30,783 nucleotides of DNA from a virus: the IMG/VR virus record IMGVR_UViG_3300025108_000236, positions 1-30,783 of that record, one strand, 5' to 3'. A program made the translations under genes and the position numbers. The number at the start of each line of letters is the position of its first letter. The stretch's first letter is position 1. Shown here in pieces: positions 4,203 to 23,467 of this stretch. The notes under the pieces are model-generated. The model was not told the origin of the DNA. It did no database searches and was given only the letters and a program-made list of their open reading frames with translations.

Positions 4203-4589
4203 ATGGGTAATGCAGTCAAAGACCCTGTCACCGGTTTGACAGAGAAACAAACGGCGTTAGTCGAACACCTCGTAACGAATGGCGGCACCATAAAAGACGC
4301 GGCAGCGGTCGCCGGCTACGCAGAGGGTGAGACCGGAAGGGTCAGCGCTTCCAAGACCTTAGCCCTTCCACATGTGCAATCATACATGCATGAAAGAATG
4401 AGGCAGGAGTTGGGCGTTAAAGCAACCCTAGCCGCCCATCAGGTCGCACGCTTAGCAGTCAACGCAAAGTCTGAATACGTCCAGTTGGAAGCAAGCAAAG
4501 ACATCATGGACAGGGCAGGACTCAAAGCACCAGAGAAGCACATGCACTTGCACGCAGGAGACATCAAGGTAGAGATTGACCTCGGATAA
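4203..4589 (+). CDS. Terminase small subunit
   Basis: A 128-residue DNA-recognition subunit of the packaging motor. The N-terminal half has the helix-turn-helix pattern of small terminases (LTEKQTALVEHLVTNGG, then AAAVAGY at 34-40, followed by SKTLALPHVQSYMHERM). The central helices include AKSEYVQLEASKDIMDRAGLK, and the acidic tail GDIKVEIDLG would contact the large subunit. It should form a ring that binds the phage packaging site and stimulates the large subunit encoded at 7529-9049. Purine-rich sequence before the ATG provides ribosome binding. It is the first rightward gene. Separation from the large terminase by about 3 kb of other genes is unusual, as the two are commonly adjacent. Confidence 0.8.
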   Translation: MGNAVKDPVTGLTEKQTALVEHLVTNGGTIKDAAAVAGYAEGETGRVSASKTLALPHVQSYMHERMRQELGVKATLAAHQVARLAVNAKSEYVQLEASKDIMDRAGLKAPEKHMHLHAGDIKVEIDLG

Positions 4590-4779: not shown

Positions 4780-5892
4780 ATGGCTTTCAAGATACTCCCA
4801 GCTAACGCTGTTGCCTTTGCTAGGTTTATGCTGGGTAATAAGATCACCAATGCGTTGGGCGTTGAGGTTGCCAGCCAGACCGACATGAACCTTTCTTTGC
4901 TGGATGAGAACGCTAAAGATGTTTTGCGCGGGGCTGTTGCTAATGCTCGCAAAGCTGGCCGCAGCTATGTTGAGTATAAAGACTATCCGGCTATGGCCTC
5001 CGGGGAACGTCCTGAAAAATTTTATAGCGGTAAAAGGTCTGCAAGAGATTTGTTTGATCTTTATGTTGAGTCGGCAACTGACCCTGTCTTTGAAATGTTT
5101 AGTTCTGTTGGAGGCTTTGTTTTTGAAGACTCCCCTGATGGTGGCTTTATTATTCCAAACGACCCGTTTGACTTCGATCGCTCGAAGTCTCCAAAGGTTC
5201 GCAAAGAGAGAGACGCTTACTCAAAGGTAGTGCATCTTGCTCAAGACATTCCTCAAACCTATAAATTTTCTTTATCAGGAACCATTCCTCCAAGGGGTGG
5301 CAATCAGTTTGATACTGAATACTTAGGCAAGATGGTGACAGCAGCATATAATACTGCTTCTGATGTCTTGATGACCTATGGCAATCTTGCAAAGGATGCG
5401 TTGCCGTTAGAGTTTATTGCGACTGCGCGCGAAGCTGTTGATAGATATGCTGACTCCTTTTCTACTAAACCTACTGAGGTTGATTTGGCGGAGGTAAACT
5501 TTCCGAATATGGAGGCGTTGCCCGATTGGGTGGGAGATATGGTTGGTAAGTTTGTTCCCGATGGAATTGAACTGGCCAGTAAGTATGATGATGGCTTTAA
5601 CCTTGACTTGAAGCTGCCTCGCATTGACAGAACCTTTGGTGACATTCTTGATGTTGATATTGATATGTCAGTTCCCAGCCCTCGGCTTCCAGCTGCGTTT
5701 TTAAGTGATGAGCGTCTTACGCAAGTTAAGGATGCTGTAACACAATCTTTTAATGCAATGACTCCGCCCAAAGCAGATGAGCTTAACTTCAATCAAGCCT
5801 TTGCTAGAAACCGAGCATTGGGTCGAGAAGACTTTGAGTGGCGCGGAAACAAATACCACACACGTTACAAGGAAGAGATGAATGTCGCGTGA
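4780..5892 (+). CDS. Unknown phage protein (370 aa), probable virion or packaging-associated
   Basis: A 370-residue soluble protein with no signal peptide or membrane segment; I do not recognise its family. The N-terminus (MAFKILPANAVAFARFMLGNK) is amphipathic. Around 103-135 there is a compact Gly/Asp-rich beta motif (SVGGFVFEDSPDGGFIIPND, then PFDFDRS). The middle is acidic and helical, with several repeats of a proline-bounded leucine pattern. The C-terminal 30 residues form a small separate motif, FxxAFARxRxxGxxxFxWRGxxYxTxxKEE, which I recall seeing as a detachable tail on other phage structural proteins. It lies between the two terminase genes and overlaps the next gene by 11 bp. A virion or packaging role is inferred from position only. 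Confidence 0.65.
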   Translation: MAFKILPANAVAFARFMLGNKITNALGVEVASQTDMNLSLLDENAKDVLRGAVANARKAGRSYVEYKDYPAMASGERPEKFYSGKRSARDLFDLYVESATDPVFEMFSSVGGFVFEDSPDGGFIIPNDPFDFDRSKSPKVRKERDAYSKVVHLAQDIPQTYKFSLSGTIPPRGGNQFDTEYLGKMVTAAYNTASDVLMTYGNLAKDALPLEFIATAREAVDRYADSFSTKPTEVDLAEVNFPNMEALPDWVGDMVGKFVPDGIELASKYDDGFNLDLKLPRIDRTFGDILDVDIDMSVPSPRLPAAFLSDERLTQVKDAVTQSFNAMTPPKADELNFNQAFARNRALGREDFEWRGNKYHTRYKEEMNVA

Positions 5893-6166
5893 TCCTCGAT
5901 TAGTTCGTGCAGGAGTGAAGGGTTTTAATAAACCTCAGAGAACTCCCAACCACCCCAAGAAGTCTCATGTAGTTGTCGCCAAAGAAGGCGATAAGGTTAA
6001 GACCATTCGTTTTGGTGAGCAGGGTGCCTCTACTGCTGGCAAGCCCAAGGCCGGTGAGTCAGAGCGTATGAAAAAAAAGCGCGCAAGCTTCAAGGCGCGT
6101 CATAGAAAAAACATTGCCAAAGGCAAGATGTCTGCGGCATACTGGGCTAATAAGGTTAAATGGTGA
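5882..6166 (+). CDS. Small basic conserved phage protein (94 aa)
   Basis: A 94-residue, strongly basic protein. It begins MSRDPRLVRAGVKGFNKPQR, has a beta-like centre KSHVVVAKEGDKVKTIRFGEQG (27-48) and ends with a helical basic tail (KKKRASFKARHRKNIAKGKMSAAYWANKVKW). I recall near-identical layouts in other marine phage genomes as conserved proteins without a known function. The ATG at 5882 has GGAAGAG upstream and overlaps the preceding gene by 11 bp. It is the first of a chain of small basic genes before the large terminase. The tail would suit nucleic-acid binding. Confidence 0.7.
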   Translation: MSRDPRLVRAGVKGFNKPQRTPNHPKKSHVVVAKEGDKVKTIRFGEQGASTAGKPKAGESERMKKKRASFKARHRKNIAKGKMSAAYWANKVKW

Positions 6167-6171
6167 TTTAA

Positions 6172-6471
6172 ATGGCTGACAATCAAAAGGCTAAGTTTAC
6201 AAGTCTTATTCCTCAGGCGATTAAGCAAGCAGAGCGTAAAGTTTCTGACAGGCTTAATAAAAAAGAGCATAACTCAACGTTTCGCAATCAAGAGTTAACT
6301 GCCGCAAAAACTCTTTTGAAGAATGCTGGTGTATCTGCAACTGAGAAAGAGATAAAAGATAGGCTTTCTATGACTGCTGGCAGTGCTTGGCGCATTCTTA
6401 AAAAACGCCGTGAAGAGGCAAAAAACAAACCAACTATGTTTACTAATAATCCTAAGTTTGGGAGTAAGTAA
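6172..6471 (+). CDS. Small basic helical protein (99 aa)
   Basis: A 99-residue Lys/Arg-rich protein, predominantly helical. It is not a family I can name. The region EKEIKDRLSMTAGSAWRILKKRREEAKNKP (59-88) has a turn between two helices and could be a helix-turn-helix-like nucleic-acid-binding unit. The ATG at 6172 follows the previous stop by a few bases. The ribosome binding site is weak (AGG at about 16 bases), so translation may depend on the upstream gene. Its stop overlaps the next ATG (TAATG). Confidence 0.6.
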   Translation: MADNQKAKFTSLIPQAIKQAERKVSDRLNKKEHNSTFRNQELTAAKTLLKNAGVSATEKEIKDRLSMTAGSAWRILKKRREEAKNKPTMFTNNPKFGSK

Positions 6472-6590
6472 TGCCTAACGTAGCCGGAAAGAAATACCCA
6501 TACACCCCTGCTGGCATCAAAGCAGCTAAGAAAGCTGCCGCCAAAAAGAAAGGGAAAAAGAAATCAATGTTGAAAGGATATGGTAAATGA
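6471..6590 (+). CDS. Tiny Lys/Ala-rich protein (39 aa)
   Basis: A 39-codon gene beginning MPNVAGKKYPYTPAGIKAAK and continuing as a Lys/Ala-rich helix. I recall very similar short proteins (P-N-V-x-G-K-K-[YF]-P-Y-T-x-x-G) in many marine phages and their metagenomic relatives, so it is probably a real conserved gene. Its ATG overlaps the preceding stop (TAATG), and its TGA overlaps the next ATG (ATGA). The function is unknown; the charge suggests DNA, RNA or virion-interior binding. Confidence 0.7.
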   Translation: MPNVAGKKYPYTPAGIKAAKKAAAKKKGKKKSMLKGYGK

Positions 6591-6835
6591 GCAAGCTTTA
6601 TAAGATTGATGGTTCGGAATACATCGGTAAGGATTATTTTGTTCTTCCTGATGGTCGCCCCCACTCAGGCAAGACTTTTACTGCTGAAAGTGTTCGCCTT
6701 TTTACAGAAGAAGAACTTGCTGATCGCGGCGTAAAGGCAGTAGCCCATGTGCCAGAGAAACGAGTTCAAAAAGTAAAAACAAAAAACACCCCTACCTCCT
6801 TGCGTAAGTTGAAGGAAGAAGAGAATGGCGGTTAA
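6587..6835 (+). CDS. Hypothetical small protein (82 aa)
   Basis: An 82-residue protein with an N-terminal beta-rich half (KLYKIDGSEYIGKDYFVLPDGRPHSGKTF, then RLFTEEELADRG at 37-48) and a basic, proline-containing C-terminus ending KLKEEENGG. The N-terminal pattern resembles small DNA-mimic or head-associated phage domains, but I recognise no family. It starts with an ATGA overlap and its 3' end overlaps the next gene by 11 bp. Confidence 0.6.
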   Translation: MSKLYKIDGSEYIGKDYFVLPDGRPHSGKTFTAESVRLFTEEELADRGVKAVAHVPEKRVQKVKTKNTPTSLRKLKEEENGG

Positions 6836-6992
6836 TGAAGCTGGCAATTACACCAAGCCACGGATGCGTAAAAATCTCTTTGAGAAAATTAAACGCGGTG
6901 GCAAAGGTGGGTCTCCGGGGCAATGGTCTGCACGCAAGGCTCAGATGCTTGCGCGTGAATACAAGGCTCGGGGCGGAGGCTATACTAGCTAA
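6825..6992 (+). CDS. DUF5872-like small basic protein (55 aa)
   Basis: A 55-codon gene. It begins MAVNEAGNYTKPRMRKNLFE and continues with a glycine-rich loop (GGKGGSPGQW, 25-34) and a helix ARKAQMLAREYKARGGGYTS. The pattern N-E-A-G-N-Y-T-K-P...K-G-G-x-P-G-Q-W-S-A-R-K-A-Q-x-L-A matches what I know as DUF5872, found in phages and some bacteria with no assigned function. The ATG at 6825 follows GGAAGAAGAG. The stop overlaps the next ATG (TAATG). Confidence in the family is good; the function is unknown. Confidence 0.75.
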   Translation: MAVNEAGNYTKPRMRKNLFEKIKRGGKGGSPGQWSARKAQMLAREYKARGGGYTS

Positions 6993-7243
6993 TGAAAGCC
7001 CCGCAAAAATCTCTTCGCGCTTGGACAAAACAAAAGTGGCGGACTAAATCAGGCAAGCCCAGCACTCAAGGTTCTGAGGCTACTGGTGAACGTTACTTGC
7101 CAGAGAAGGCAATCAAAAGCTTGAGCGACGAAGAGTATGCTCGCACTACAGCAAAGAAACGTGCGGCTCGCCGTGCTGGCAAACAGTTTTCAAAGCAGCC
7201 CAAAAGTATTGCTGAAAAAACGCGGAAGCATCGTCGTGTCTAA
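6992..7243 (+). CDS. Small basic conserved protein (83 aa)
   Basis: An 83-residue, very basic protein starting MKAPQKSLRAWTKQKWRTKSGK. It has a central STQGSEATGERYLPEKAIKSLSDEEYARTT (about 24-53) and an Arg/Lys tail. I recall this combination (W-x-x-Q-K-W-R-T-K-S-G-K-P-S...G-E-R-Y-L-P) next to DUF5872 genes in other marine phages, again without a known role. It starts one base into the preceding stop and overlaps the following GTG-start gene by 8 bp. Confidence 0.7.
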   Translation: MKAPQKSLRAWTKQKWRTKSGKPSTQGSEATGERYLPEKAIKSLSDEEYARTTAKKRAARRAGKQFSKQPKSIAEKTRKHRRV

Positions 7244-7373
7244 GCAAGAAATCCGCAAGCTGCGAAAGAAGGCAATCAAGATGCAGAACAATAGTTCGCG
7301 CAAGATGTCTTTTTCCGAAGCCATGCAGGAGGTAAGGAAGGTAACAGATGAGTTTTCTACACACAATAAGTGA
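7236..7373 (+). CDS. Tiny basic protein (45 aa), GTG start
   Basis: A 45-codon gene in a third frame, starting at a GTG (7236) with GGAAG seven bases upstream. It is helical: MSKQEIRKLRKKAIKMQNNS, then MSFSEAMQEVRKVTDEF. The frame is open back to 7137, but the upstream part overlaps a better gene and has poor coding character, so I use the GTG. No function is recognised. It overlaps the next gene by 26 bp. Confidence 0.5.
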   Translation: MSKQEIRKLRKKAIKMQNNSSRKMSFSEAMQEVRKVTDEFSTHNK

Positions 7374-7542
7374 GCAAGAGCGTCGAGTCTTACGCAACAT
7401 AGTTAAGAAGGTTCACCTCAAGCACCACCCCAAAGAGTTCTGCACTGACTATGAAGCTGATAAGCTTATCTCGATTATTGCTCCCGATGTGGTTGAGCGT
7501 CTAATCAAAGTCGGCGTGGATCATAAAATTGACAAACTTTAA
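7348..7542 (+). CDS. Hypothetical small protein before large terminase (64 aa)
   Basis: A 64-residue helical protein with the core SEQERRVLRNIVKKVHLKHHPKEFCTDYEADKLISIIAP. It has no recognised family. The ATG at 7348 is well supported by a long purine Shine-Dalgarno (GGAGGTAAGGAAGGT). Its 3' end overlaps the TTG start of the large terminase by 14 bp, which may couple the two. Confidence 0.65.
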   Translation: MSFLHTISEQERRVLRNIVKKVHLKHHPKEFCTDYEADKLISIIAPDVVERLIKVGVDHKIDKL

Positions 7543-9049
7543 GTATAAGCCAGATGGCGATGTCCTAAAGGAGTTTATGAAGGACGATACCTTCTTCCGT
7601 GGTATTCGCGGCCCGGTAGGCTCTGGCAAATCTGTTGGTTGCTGTGTTGAGGTTTTCCGCCGTGCTTTAGCGCAACAAAAAAACGATGATGGGATACGCC
7701 GCTCACGCTGGGCTATCATTCGTAACACCAACCCGCAGCTGAGAACCACCACTATTAAGACTTGGCTTGACTGGTTTCCCGAAGACCAATGGGGCAAGTT
7801 CCAGTGGTCAGTCCCCTACACACATCATATCAAGCAAGGCGATTTAGACCTTGAGGTTATCTTTCTTGCTCTTGATAGACCAGAGGATGTAAAGAAACTT
7901 CTGTCATTGGAGTTGACTGGCATTTGGATTAACGAGGCGAGGGAATTGCCGAAGTCAATTATTGATGCTTGCACTATGCGTGTTGGTCGTTTCCCCTCTA
8001 TGCGAGAGGGCGGCCCGACTTGGACTGGCGTAATTGCTGATACTAACGCGCCAGAAGAAGACCACTGGTGGCCTATTATGTCCGGCGAAGTTCCTATCCC
8101 CGACCATATTTCTGCTGATGAAGCGCGTATGATGGTAAAGCCAGACAACTGGAGTTTCTACACGCAGCCTGCGGGAATGGTAGAGGAAAAAGATAAAGAG
8201 GGTTCTATCCAAGACTATGTGCCTAATAAACAGGCAGAGAACCAAAAGAACATGATGAAAAGTTATTACCCTAATCTTATCAGGGGTAAGACTAAAAGCT
8301 GGATTGATGTTTATGTAATGAATAAGCTAGGACAGATAAATGATGGAAAGCCGGTATATCAAATGTTTGCGCCAGACCTACACATTGCTAAAGAAGAAAT
8401 ACCTGTTGCCGCTGGAGTTCCGGTCTTTGTTGGTCTTGACTTTGGCCTTACTCCTGCTGCTGTGTTTGGTCAGCGTGTTCGTGGTCGTTGGTTAATACTT
8501 CAAGAGATTGTTGCTTTCGATATGGGAATTGTGCGATTTGCAGAGTTGCTTCGACAAGAAATTGCTACCCGCTATAGTGGGTGTGAAGTAAATATCATTG
8601 GAGATCCGGCTGGCGATTTCCGCGCGCAAACCGATGAAAGCACCCCATTTCAAGTGCTTCGAGGTGCTGGGCTTACTGCGCGTCCTGCACAATCTAATGA
8701 TGTTTCCTTGCGTATCGAAGCTGTGGCTGGCACACTTAACCGTTTGGTTGAAGGCAAGTCAGGTATTCTGATAGACCCTCGATGCAAAGAATTAATCAAG
8801 GGCTTTGATGGAGGCTATGGGTATAGGCGCATGCAAGTATCTGGCGAGCGTTACGATGACAAGCCAGACAAAAACAGGTTCTCTCACATACACGATGCCC
8901 TACAATATTTAATGCTTGGCGGTGGAGAAGGCCGTGAAGTTCTTGGAAATAACAAAAATGCTAAACCATTTACTATGAAGCGGGACTTTGATATATTTAC
9001 ACGGAAACCCAAGCAAGCAAAGCAAAGTTTTTGGAATAGGATGAAGTAA
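7529..9049 (+). CDS. terL: Terminase large subunit (ATPase and nuclease)
   Basis: The 506-residue packaging motor that pumps and cuts phage DNA. The N-terminal ATPase carries Walker A GPVGSGKS (28-35), an adenine/arginine-side motif RSRWAIIRNTNPQL (58-71), Walker B and catalytic glutamate GIWINEARE (131-139, E136) and a motif III-like ADTNAP (170-175). The RNase H-like nuclease shows three aspartates: D304 in VGLDFGLTP, D359 in IIGDPAG and D456 in SHIHDALQY. The best full-length start is a TTG at 7529, because it preserves the FKYKPDG leader expected before the ATPase; the first in-frame ATG (7577) has AAGGAG only three bases away. It follows the small basic genes and overlaps the next gene by one base. 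Confidence 0.95.
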   Translation: MTNFKYKPDGDVLKEFMKDDTFFRGIRGPVGSGKSVGCCVEVFRRALAQQKNDDGIRRSRWAIIRNTNPQLRTTTIKTWLDWFPEDQWGKFQWSVPYTHHIKQGDLDLEVIFLALDRPEDVKKLLSLELTGIWINEARELPKSIIDACTMRVGRFPSMREGGPTWTGVIADTNAPEEDHWWPIMSGEVPIPDHISADEARMMVKPDNWSFYTQPAGMVEEKDKEGSIQDYVPNKQAENQKNMMKSYYPNLIRGKTKSWIDVYVMNKLGQINDGKPVYQMFAPDLHIAKEEIPVAAGVPVFVGLDFGLTPAAVFGQRVRGRWLILQEIVAFDMGIVRFAELLRQEIATRYSGCEVNIIGDPAGDFRAQTDESTPFQVLRGAGLTARPAQSNDVSLRIEAVAGTLNRLVEGKSGILIDPRCKELIKGFDGGYGYRRMQVSGERYDDKPDKNRFSHIHDALQYLMLGGGEGREVLGNNKNAKPFTMKRDFDIFTRKPKQAKQSFWNRMK

Positions 9050-22228: not shown

Positions 22229-23467
22229 ATGACAATAGTAATTGCAGATAACAGTCCACGTAAGACTTACACAGCCACGGCGGGTCAGACAGACTTTCCG
22301 ACTGACTTTGCGTTTTTCTCAAAGCCAGATGTTAATGTGTATGTAGATAACGTCCTTAAAACACTGGACTCTGACTATTCTATTCCTACTACCGGGCCGA
22401 GTGCTTGGACTAGCGGTAATGATGGCACTATTGTTTTTTCTACTGGGCTTACTGTTGGCCAGACGGTTGTTCTTACACGCGATGTAGAACTGGAAAGAAC
22501 TACTGACTTTCCTACCTCCGGCCCGTTCCAAGTATCTTCTTTGAATGTAGAGCTTGATAAACTTGTTGCTATGGTAGCTGACATGAAAGACTTGGCCGAT
22601 CGTGGCCTTCGTCTTTCTGACTCCGATATATCTGCTGCACTTGTTCTTGCCGATAAAGATGCGCGTAAGGGAACTGTTCTTGCGTTTAACGCCACAACTG
22701 GCGCAGTTGAGGTCGGCCCGACGATTGCTGATACTAATACTATCGCTCAAATTAAGGCTGATGTTGCTACTGTTGCTGGTATTTCTGGCAACGTAACTAC
22801 TGTTGCTGGCATCTCTAGCAATGTAACTACTGTTGCGTCTAACAATGCAAATGTAACTACTGTTGCTGGACAGACAGCTAACATGCAAAGCGTTGTAGAC
22901 AATCTGACTGACATTCAAAATGCTGTAACTAGCGCAACAAACGCTGCTGCCAGTGCTACTGCTGCGGCTACCTCTGCAACTAATGCCTCCACTTCAGAAA
23001 CCAATGCAGCTACATCAGAAAGCAATGCGTCTACTTCGGCTACCAATGCCTCCGCTTCTGCAAGTGCAGCCTCTACAAGTGCTTCTGCGGCCTCTACAAG
23101 TGCCACTGCTGCTGCTGCAAGTGAAACGGCTGCCGGCACAAGCGAAACCAATGCGGCTACGTCGGCTACAAATGCTTCTAATTCCGCCTCTGCGGCTGCA
23201 ACATCTGCTTCTTCTGCATCTACATCTGCCAGCAATTCAGCCACATCTGCTAGCAATGCCGCTACGTCGGCAACAAACGCTGCGGCATCAGCTACTGCCG
23301 CCGCCACCTCGGAAAGTAATGCAGCTGCAAGTGAAACAGCGGCTCAAAATAGCGCGGCATCTGTTACATCTTACATAGATACTTTTGCAAATCTTGAATA
23401 CTTGGCTGATTTTGGATTGATTACCAACACAGCCGGAACAATTAATGATTACGGGAGCCTTGTCTAA
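22229..23467 (+). CDS. Tail fibre, T7 gp17-type N-terminus with heptad-repeat shaft
   Basis: A 412-residue trimeric fibre or adaptor. Residues 1-150 match the T7 fibre N-terminal attachment domain: YTATAGQTDFPTDFAFFSKPDVNVYVDN, the DYSI strand, GTIVFSTGLTVGQTVVLTRDVELERTTDF, and SLNVELDKLVAMVADMKDLADR. Then come four decads (TVAGIS-N-VT), and about 21 Ala/Ser/Thr/Asn heptads form a likely trimeric coiled shaft. The C-terminal 30 residues (YIDTFANLEYLADFGLITNTAGTINDYGSLV) are a short knob. There is no receptor-binding head of usual size, so it probably carries or supports the second fibre gene that overlaps it by one base. Confidence 0.85.
   Translation: MTIVIADNSPRKTYTATAGQTDFPTDFAFFSKPDVNVYVDNVLKTLDSDYSIPTTGPSAWTSGNDGTIVFSTGLTVGQTVVLTRDVELERTTDFPTSGPFQVSSLNVELDKLVAMVADMKDLADRGLRLSDSDISAALVLADKDARKGTVLAFNATTGAVEVGPTIADTNTIAQIKADVATVAGISGNVTTVAGISSNVTTVASNNANVTTVAGQTANMQSVVDNLTDIQNAVTSATNAAASATAAATSATNASTSETNAATSESNASTSATNASASASAASTSASAASTSATAAAASETAAGTSETNAATSATNASNSASAAATSASSASTSASNSATSASNAATSATNAAASATAAATSESNAAASETAAQNSAASVTSYIDTFANLEYLADFGLITNTAGTINDYGSLV
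22769..22888 (+). repeat. Four 30-bp repeats encoding TVAGxSxNVT decads
   Basis: Four consecutive in-frame 30-bp units (22769, 22799, 22829, 22859) encode TVAGISGNVT, TVAGISSNVT, TVASNNANVT and TVAGQTANMQ. The repeated decads are common in phage fibre stalks. Conservation falls toward the end of the array, as expected for repeats that grow by slippage or unequal exchange. Confidence 0.75.
22925..23365 (+). repeat. About 21 in-frame 21-bp repeats encoding Ala/Ser/Thr/Asn heptads
   Basis: From the codon for VTSATNA to that for QNSAASV the protein reads as about 21 uninterrupted heptads. Typical units are ATSATNA, STSETNA, ATSESNA, STSASAA and AASETAA, that is x-x-S-[AE]-x-[NA]-A. Serine at the third and alanine at the seventh place are nearly fixed. 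This is an alanine/serine zipper expected to form a trimeric rod. The antisense strand has a long open frame only because of this composition. Confidence 0.85.

Follow-up and report, generated by a model that had tools for sequence, protein, structure and literature searches.

Two of eight small proteins encoded beside the large terminase subunit (TerL) of a marine podovirus are predicted to be the halves of one DUF5872 (PF19197) protein. The DNA analyzed here (the window) is a stretch of 30,783 nucleotides (nt), positions 1 to 30,783 of IMG/VR record IMGVR_UViG_3300025108_000236; it carries a row of eight small genes at 5882–7542. S55 (55 residues; 6825..6992, + strand) would be the N-terminal half and S83 (83 residues; 6992..7243, + strand) the C-terminal half, and this protein, encoded as two genes, is the conserved core of the row. 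S94 (94 residues; 5882..6166, + strand) is a separate small domain that is often found with the pair and in some loci forms the C-terminus of a large virion-type protein. The reading that we prefer, to which we assign a probability of about one half, is that S55+S83 and S94 are produced late, bind nucleic acid, and serve as accessories in virion assembly, and that the particle carries S94.

S55 and S83 as predicted halves of one DUF5872 protein

Loci on viral contigs were gathered using S55, S83, S94, and TerL as separate queries, and all of their open frames were searched with iterated profiles; because retrieval was by similarity to the window proteins and kept the best 80 per query, single-chain phage forms are under-sampled in these loci. 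S83 was found in 241 distinct phage loci, and S55 is also present in 231 of these; S83 lies downstream of S55 and on the same strand in all 231, with a spacing of no more than 60 nt in 152 and no more than 1500 nt in 227. Only one S83 locus with at least 2 kb of upstream sequence (L219) has no detected S55. Both halves are in one frame in 13 phage loci, that is, in 12 that include the cultured Pelagibacter phage Hodr (L002) and in S-CRES1; in a single locus (L226), S83 is fused to S94. The split point is predicted to be the linker that joins the two predicted helical parts of the DUF5872 protein. The S55 and S83 homologues of HMO-2011 are separated by three genes, one for a methanesulfonate monooxygenase and two small ones (L003 8665–11026, which is HMO-2011 46664–49025).

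When the window S55 and S83 are scanned singly against Pfam, neither matches DUF5872. The single-chain L234 matches this domain nearly full-length and shares 53% identity with the window S55 and 64% with the window S83; together, the two window proteins align across the whole domain. A second fused relative (L215) scores 27.9 bits against the curated cut-off of 27.5, the other fused phage forms score 13.9–25.2 bits, and several bacterial members exceed the cut-off. The window halves are encoded by two adjacent, overlapping genes instead of one chain, so we term the pair a split version, not an ordinary member, of DUF5872. Two genes are also the rule in most of the phages found; bacterial members add a Rho_N-type tail. 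The name DUF5872 also appears in an Azospirillum record and in Chrysochromulina parva virus BQ1 (PMC12085832).

S94, S55, and S83 are clear members of PHROGs 7595, 17747, and 14910, respectively, none with an assigned function; the matches of S55 (6e−32) and S83 (4e−32) extend over most of the length. PHROGs enters S55 and S83 as separate families, whereas the present analysis shows that they are halves of one protein.

Bacterial DUF5872 proteins and the history of the split

A scan of bacterial genomes identified 452 relatives; in the best 80 of these, together with two plasmid loci, both halves are in one frame (82/82). The bacterial protein is encoded by a free-standing gene; no conserved neighbors were found in 80 loci, so the bacterial neighborhood was dropped as a clue to function. 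Both bacterial members that were scanned have Rho_N-type tails, the match being strong in Phaeobacter (7.7e−12) and weak in Azospirillum (0.011).

In a tree of the joined halves, every split form is located on one side of one branch (support 100/99; the alignment has few columns, and the bootstrap had not settled), which points to one split event. Judging from the bacterial side of the tree, the splitting probably came after the single-chain form. The split pair is found with at least two TerL types, and the distribution of window-type and HMO-type TerL on this tree needs at least two changes; this suggests that the pair moved between phages as a unit. One split event, with the pair later accompanying at least two terminase types, would account for a pair whose order is invariant and whose members are hardly ever separated.

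S94 and the large virion-type proteins

S94 matches phrog_7595 (4e−43) over residues 4–94, aligned with positions 6–96 of 96. Its AlphaFold2 model is a confidently predicted beta hairpin followed by two helices (predicted local distance difference test, pLDDT, 85.3; predicted template modeling score, pTM, 0.74). The S94 similarity to DUF5754/Tlr6F (PF19058) is weak and suggestive only: the window S94 has an E-value of 0.052 (14.0 bits) and its best relative 1.1e−4 (22.6 bits), both below the cut-off of 27.4. S94 and nine others in a set of 26 proteins match weakly, and the best match covers positions 5–49 of 49; every score is under the curated cut-off (0/18 records above it), and the C-terminal helices of S94 fall outside the match. 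Tlr6F, which has no assigned function, is described as conserved across polinton-like viruses, virophages, large DNA viruses, and certain phages (PMC4642659); the family is also named in the context of eukaryotic giant or polinton-like viruses (PMC12220804). A match of S94 to phrog_220 (DNA pilot, 2.5e−5) was set aside as partial and Lys-rich. In a set of 140 distinct S94 proteins, Cys occupies both equivalents of window F15 and K34 in 11 proteins and both equivalents of K76 and N90 in seven; the members of a pair are both present or both absent, and L104 appears, by eye, to have all four. The coupled pairs suggest a metal- or disulfide-stabilized S94 ancestor.

A long open frame ends in an S94 tail in two loci (L044 and L077). 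When the region that precedes this tail was used as a query, nine loci were identified (L077 and L399–L406), that is, ten with L044; nine of the ten have the S94 tail, and the C-terminus of L406 is of another kind, without S94. Since L044 and L399 share one contig, the nine tailed loci represent eight contigs; the independent cases are fewer than eight because L400 and L399 share the same 1500-residue frame, C-terminus included, and L402–L404 are identical over the stretch compared. S55 and S83 are downstream of the S94-tailed protein in 9/9 loci. The linker between the body of the large protein and the tail is modular: a DUF6973-like stretch is present in L044 and L077, another insert in L401 and L405, and none in L402–L404.

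In a PHROG scan of L044 and L077, L044 matches a virion structural protein (phrog_22602, 7e−25) and the shorter L077 frame matches phrog_7595 only. The body of the L044 protein is homologous to gp123 of Cellulophaga phage phi18:3, a virion structural protein whose record cites tandem mass spectrometry (MS/MS) proteomics; however, only the body matches, and the 50 phage records in which S94 has a match do not include phi18:3. The putative link of S94 to the virion is indirect, that is, by way of a tail on large proteins, one of which is related to a protein detected in virions.

Genome context in cultured and uncultured phages

S83 is upstream of TerL in 97 of 99 window-type contigs (median distance, 202 nt) and in all 32 HMO-type contigs (median, ∼2 kb). 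Among cultured phages, the pair is upstream of TerL, or of both the small terminase subunit (TerS) and TerL, in Hodr, HMO-2011, CRP-603, and MEP402; in HTVC103P it is found among long same-strand genes that are unnamed in the record. CRP-603 and S-CRES1 have S94 in addition to the pair. In MED4-184 and KBS-S-2A, S94 is located between a gene for head morphogenesis and that for the major head protein; in SIO1 and P12053L, it comes near the end of a long run of same-strand genes. Most of the cultured phages examined have these genes in packaging, head, or late regions. A preliminary description of the window, made from its sequence alone, had placed the small genes beside the packaging motor; for the S55–S83 pair, this holds for the window type, the HMO-2011 and CRP types, and MEP402 but not for HTVC103P, HTVC035P, HTVC033P, or S-CRES1.

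The row of eight small genes in the window

The window segment is the packaging end of the late gene block of a marine podovirus, in which the families of the portal and internal virion proteins are T7-like; the genome encodes matches to phrog_332 (portal/head-tail adaptor), phrog_3437 (major head protein), and phrog_342 and phrog_805 (internal virion proteins). All of the genes from TerS to TerL are on the + strand. TerS (4203..4589) matches Pfam Terminase_2 (7e−7), phrog_51 (2.4e−10), and phrog_2538 (8.7e−10). TerL (7529..9049, with a TTG start at 7529) is 65% identical to an unannotated protein of Pelagibacter phage Hodr, the closest cultured match, and 42% identical to BcepC6B TerL. Between TerS and the small genes is P370 (4780..5892), an acidic protein with no Pfam, PHROG, or NCBIfam match; its profile identifies 67 loci and one weak partial match among cultured phages, and a relationship to the gp65 virion protein of HMO-2011 was rejected because no similarity was found.

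As the preliminary description had stated, eight short, tightly coupled genes are present between P370 and TerL, with ATGA, TAATG, and overlapping joins. In addition to S94, S55, and S83, these encode S99 (99 residues, basic; 6172..6471), which has no family match and is confined to five loci, that is, the window and close relatives; S39 (39 residues, Lys-rich; 6471..6590); S82 (82 residues, weakly basic; 6587..6835; 61 loci by profile); S44 (45 residues, basic; 7236..7373, with a GTG start at 7236; 10 loci); and S64 (64 residues, non-basic; 7348..7542). From S94 to S64, the successive junctions are a 5-nt gap, TAATG, ATGA, an 11-nt overlap, TAATG, an 8-nt overlap, and a 26-nt overlap; the end of S64 then overlaps the TerL start by 14 nt. 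Purifying selection on seven of the eight is strong: nonsynonymous divergence from relatives (dN) is far below synonymous divergence (dS), e.g., 0.017/0.486 for S55, 0.016/0.437 for S83, and 0.051/0.366 for S44, so these seven open frames are genes; S99 is too rare for the comparison.

The same description characterized most of the products as strongly Lys/Arg-rich and at least four (those starting at 5882, 6471, 6825, and 6992) as similar to families of other marine phages. Six of the eight are clearly basic, and Lys plus Arg amounts to 19–33% of the small proteins compared with a mean of 11.6% in 15 other window genes; the net charges from S94 to S64 are +21, +13, +13, +3, +10, +18, +7, and +2, the exceptions being S82 and S64. 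Profile searches of the products placed three of these four (S94, S55, and S83) in the PHROGs described above; the fourth, S39, has no good PHROG match, yet its conserved start, MPxVxxKK(Y/F)xYTxxG, is common to 51 loci and also occurs in HTVC035P and MEP402.

We then asked how far the eight-gene row extends in 38 loci that have this TerL and at least 3.5 kb of upstream sequence (45 before duplicates were removed); the counts are lower bounds because profile sensitivity is limited for short, fast-evolving proteins. S55 (36/38), S83 (36/38), and S64 (37/38) are near-universal, P370 is present in 23/38, and S82 (13/38), S39 (9/38), S94 (8/38), and S44 (2/38) are patchy, as is S99. S64 is directly upstream of TerL in 107/107 loci and overlaps it by a median of 11 nt. 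The eight genes are not conserved as a unit: their whole order is kept only among near relatives. Of the small genes other than S55, S83, and S94, S64 goes with this TerL type, and the rest would be additions specific to particular lineages. The fixed order that was noted in the window thus survives across marine phages only as the S55–S83 order (231/231 loci). Relatives without most of the genes had been anticipated as evidence against a joint function; they are found as far as S94, S39, S82, S44, and S99 are concerned, given the low counts of S82, S39, S94, and S44, and not for S55, S83, and S64. A joint function of all eight genes is not supported and was rejected on this patchy occurrence. 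The proposal of a shared function is well supported for S55 and S83, as halves of one protein, and is plausible for S94, which is often adjacent to the pair, is fused to S83 in L226, and is the tail of virion-type proteins that precede S55 and S83.

Promoter and terminator scans of the window gave little above chance, and seven window proteins and the fused L215 had no matches to PADLOC anti-phage defense profiles. Elsewhere in the window, at 22229–23467, a long protein with Ala/Ser/Thr/Asn-rich repeats is tail-fiber-like by eye.

Discussion

In the mechanism that we propose, S55+S83 and S94 would be made late, bind nucleic acid as accessories of virion assembly, and coat or organize the genome during or after packaging; S94 would be carried inside the particle. 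We infer the binding of nucleic acid and the action on the packaged genome from the Rho_N tails of the bacterial members and from charge, the S55, S83, and S94 domains being basic in phages.

Several observations weigh against this mechanism. The model of fused S55+S83 has a pTM of only 0.62, and neither it nor S94 has a solved-structure match (Foldseek against the PDB, and sequence profile); when the Foldseek lists were rechecked with VIA-align, the fused model retained one row (Z 2.9) and S94 nothing at Z of at least 2. The Phaeobacter plasmid homologue (L311 3983–4636), which has two Rho_N stretches, is acidic, which means that the DUF5872 fold does not require a strong positive charge, and basic charge is ruled out as a defining property of the domain. 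In HTVC035P, HTVC033P, and S-CRES1, the genes are near the end of the late block, beside lysis-type genes, and in S-EIV1 the S55 match is far from S94 (an exception for S55); these placements also fit a late role unrelated to packaging. The tailed proteins of L399–L405 are recognized only by their 49–100% similarity to the pre-tail region of L044. Finally, the literature searched, which was accessible as parts of papers, yielded, for S55, S83, and S94 as free proteins, no assay, no binding or expression data, and no virion proteomics.

The placement beside lysis-type genes leads to a different assignment, that is, that DUF5872 and S94 are late host-directed proteins that act on host nucleic acid, transcription, or the timing of lysis and not in the virion. 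Several phages have the pair beside lysozyme, amidase, or peptidase genes, and the free-standing bacterial DUF5872 proteins, with their Rho_N tails and no conserved neighbors, would be compatible with such a role; however, some large virion-type proteins have S94 as their tail, and in MED4-184, KBS-S-2A, HMO-2011, MEP402, and the window type the genes are placed within head or packaging regions, so we regard a host-directed function as unlikely. Proximity to TerL might instead mean that the eight small proteins are terminase or procapsid accessories, that is, regulatory subunits of this packaging motor. The invariant overlap of S64 with TerL agrees with this assignment, as does the persistence of S55 and S83 upstream of two types of TerL and in the same position in MEP402, but five of the eight genes are patchy, several cultured phages have the pair at a distance from TerL, and DUF5872 is carried by cellular bacteria; a motor-specific role for the whole row is distinctly improbable.

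The patchiness itself could mean that the small late genes of the row are a loose set without any shared function, together only since phage genes move as blocks: S94, S39, S82, S44, and S99 come and go among TerL relatives, and S55 and S83 can be separated by insertions, as in HMO-2011. That explanation has very little probability in our judgment, for it accounts neither for a pair that is never reversed and has single-chain homologues nor for the S83–S94 fusion. At the other extreme, marine phages, cellular bacteria, and large eukaryotic DNA viruses might share one genome-organizing system made up of S55, S83, and S94; phages would split DUF5872 in two and tether S94 to an ejected virion protein, so that S94 enters the host with the DNA. 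DUF5872 and DUF5754 are both named in eukaryotic giant or polinton-like viruses, where their role is likewise unassigned (PMC12085832, PMC12220804); we consider so broad a system a long shot.

On the reading that S55+S83 and S94 are accessories of virion assembly, three uninformative annotations become a testable hypothesis about how phages handle packaged DNA. Two widespread marine phage families without an assigned function prove to be a single split protein that has homologues in cells, and the conserved split pair provides a handle on its role.

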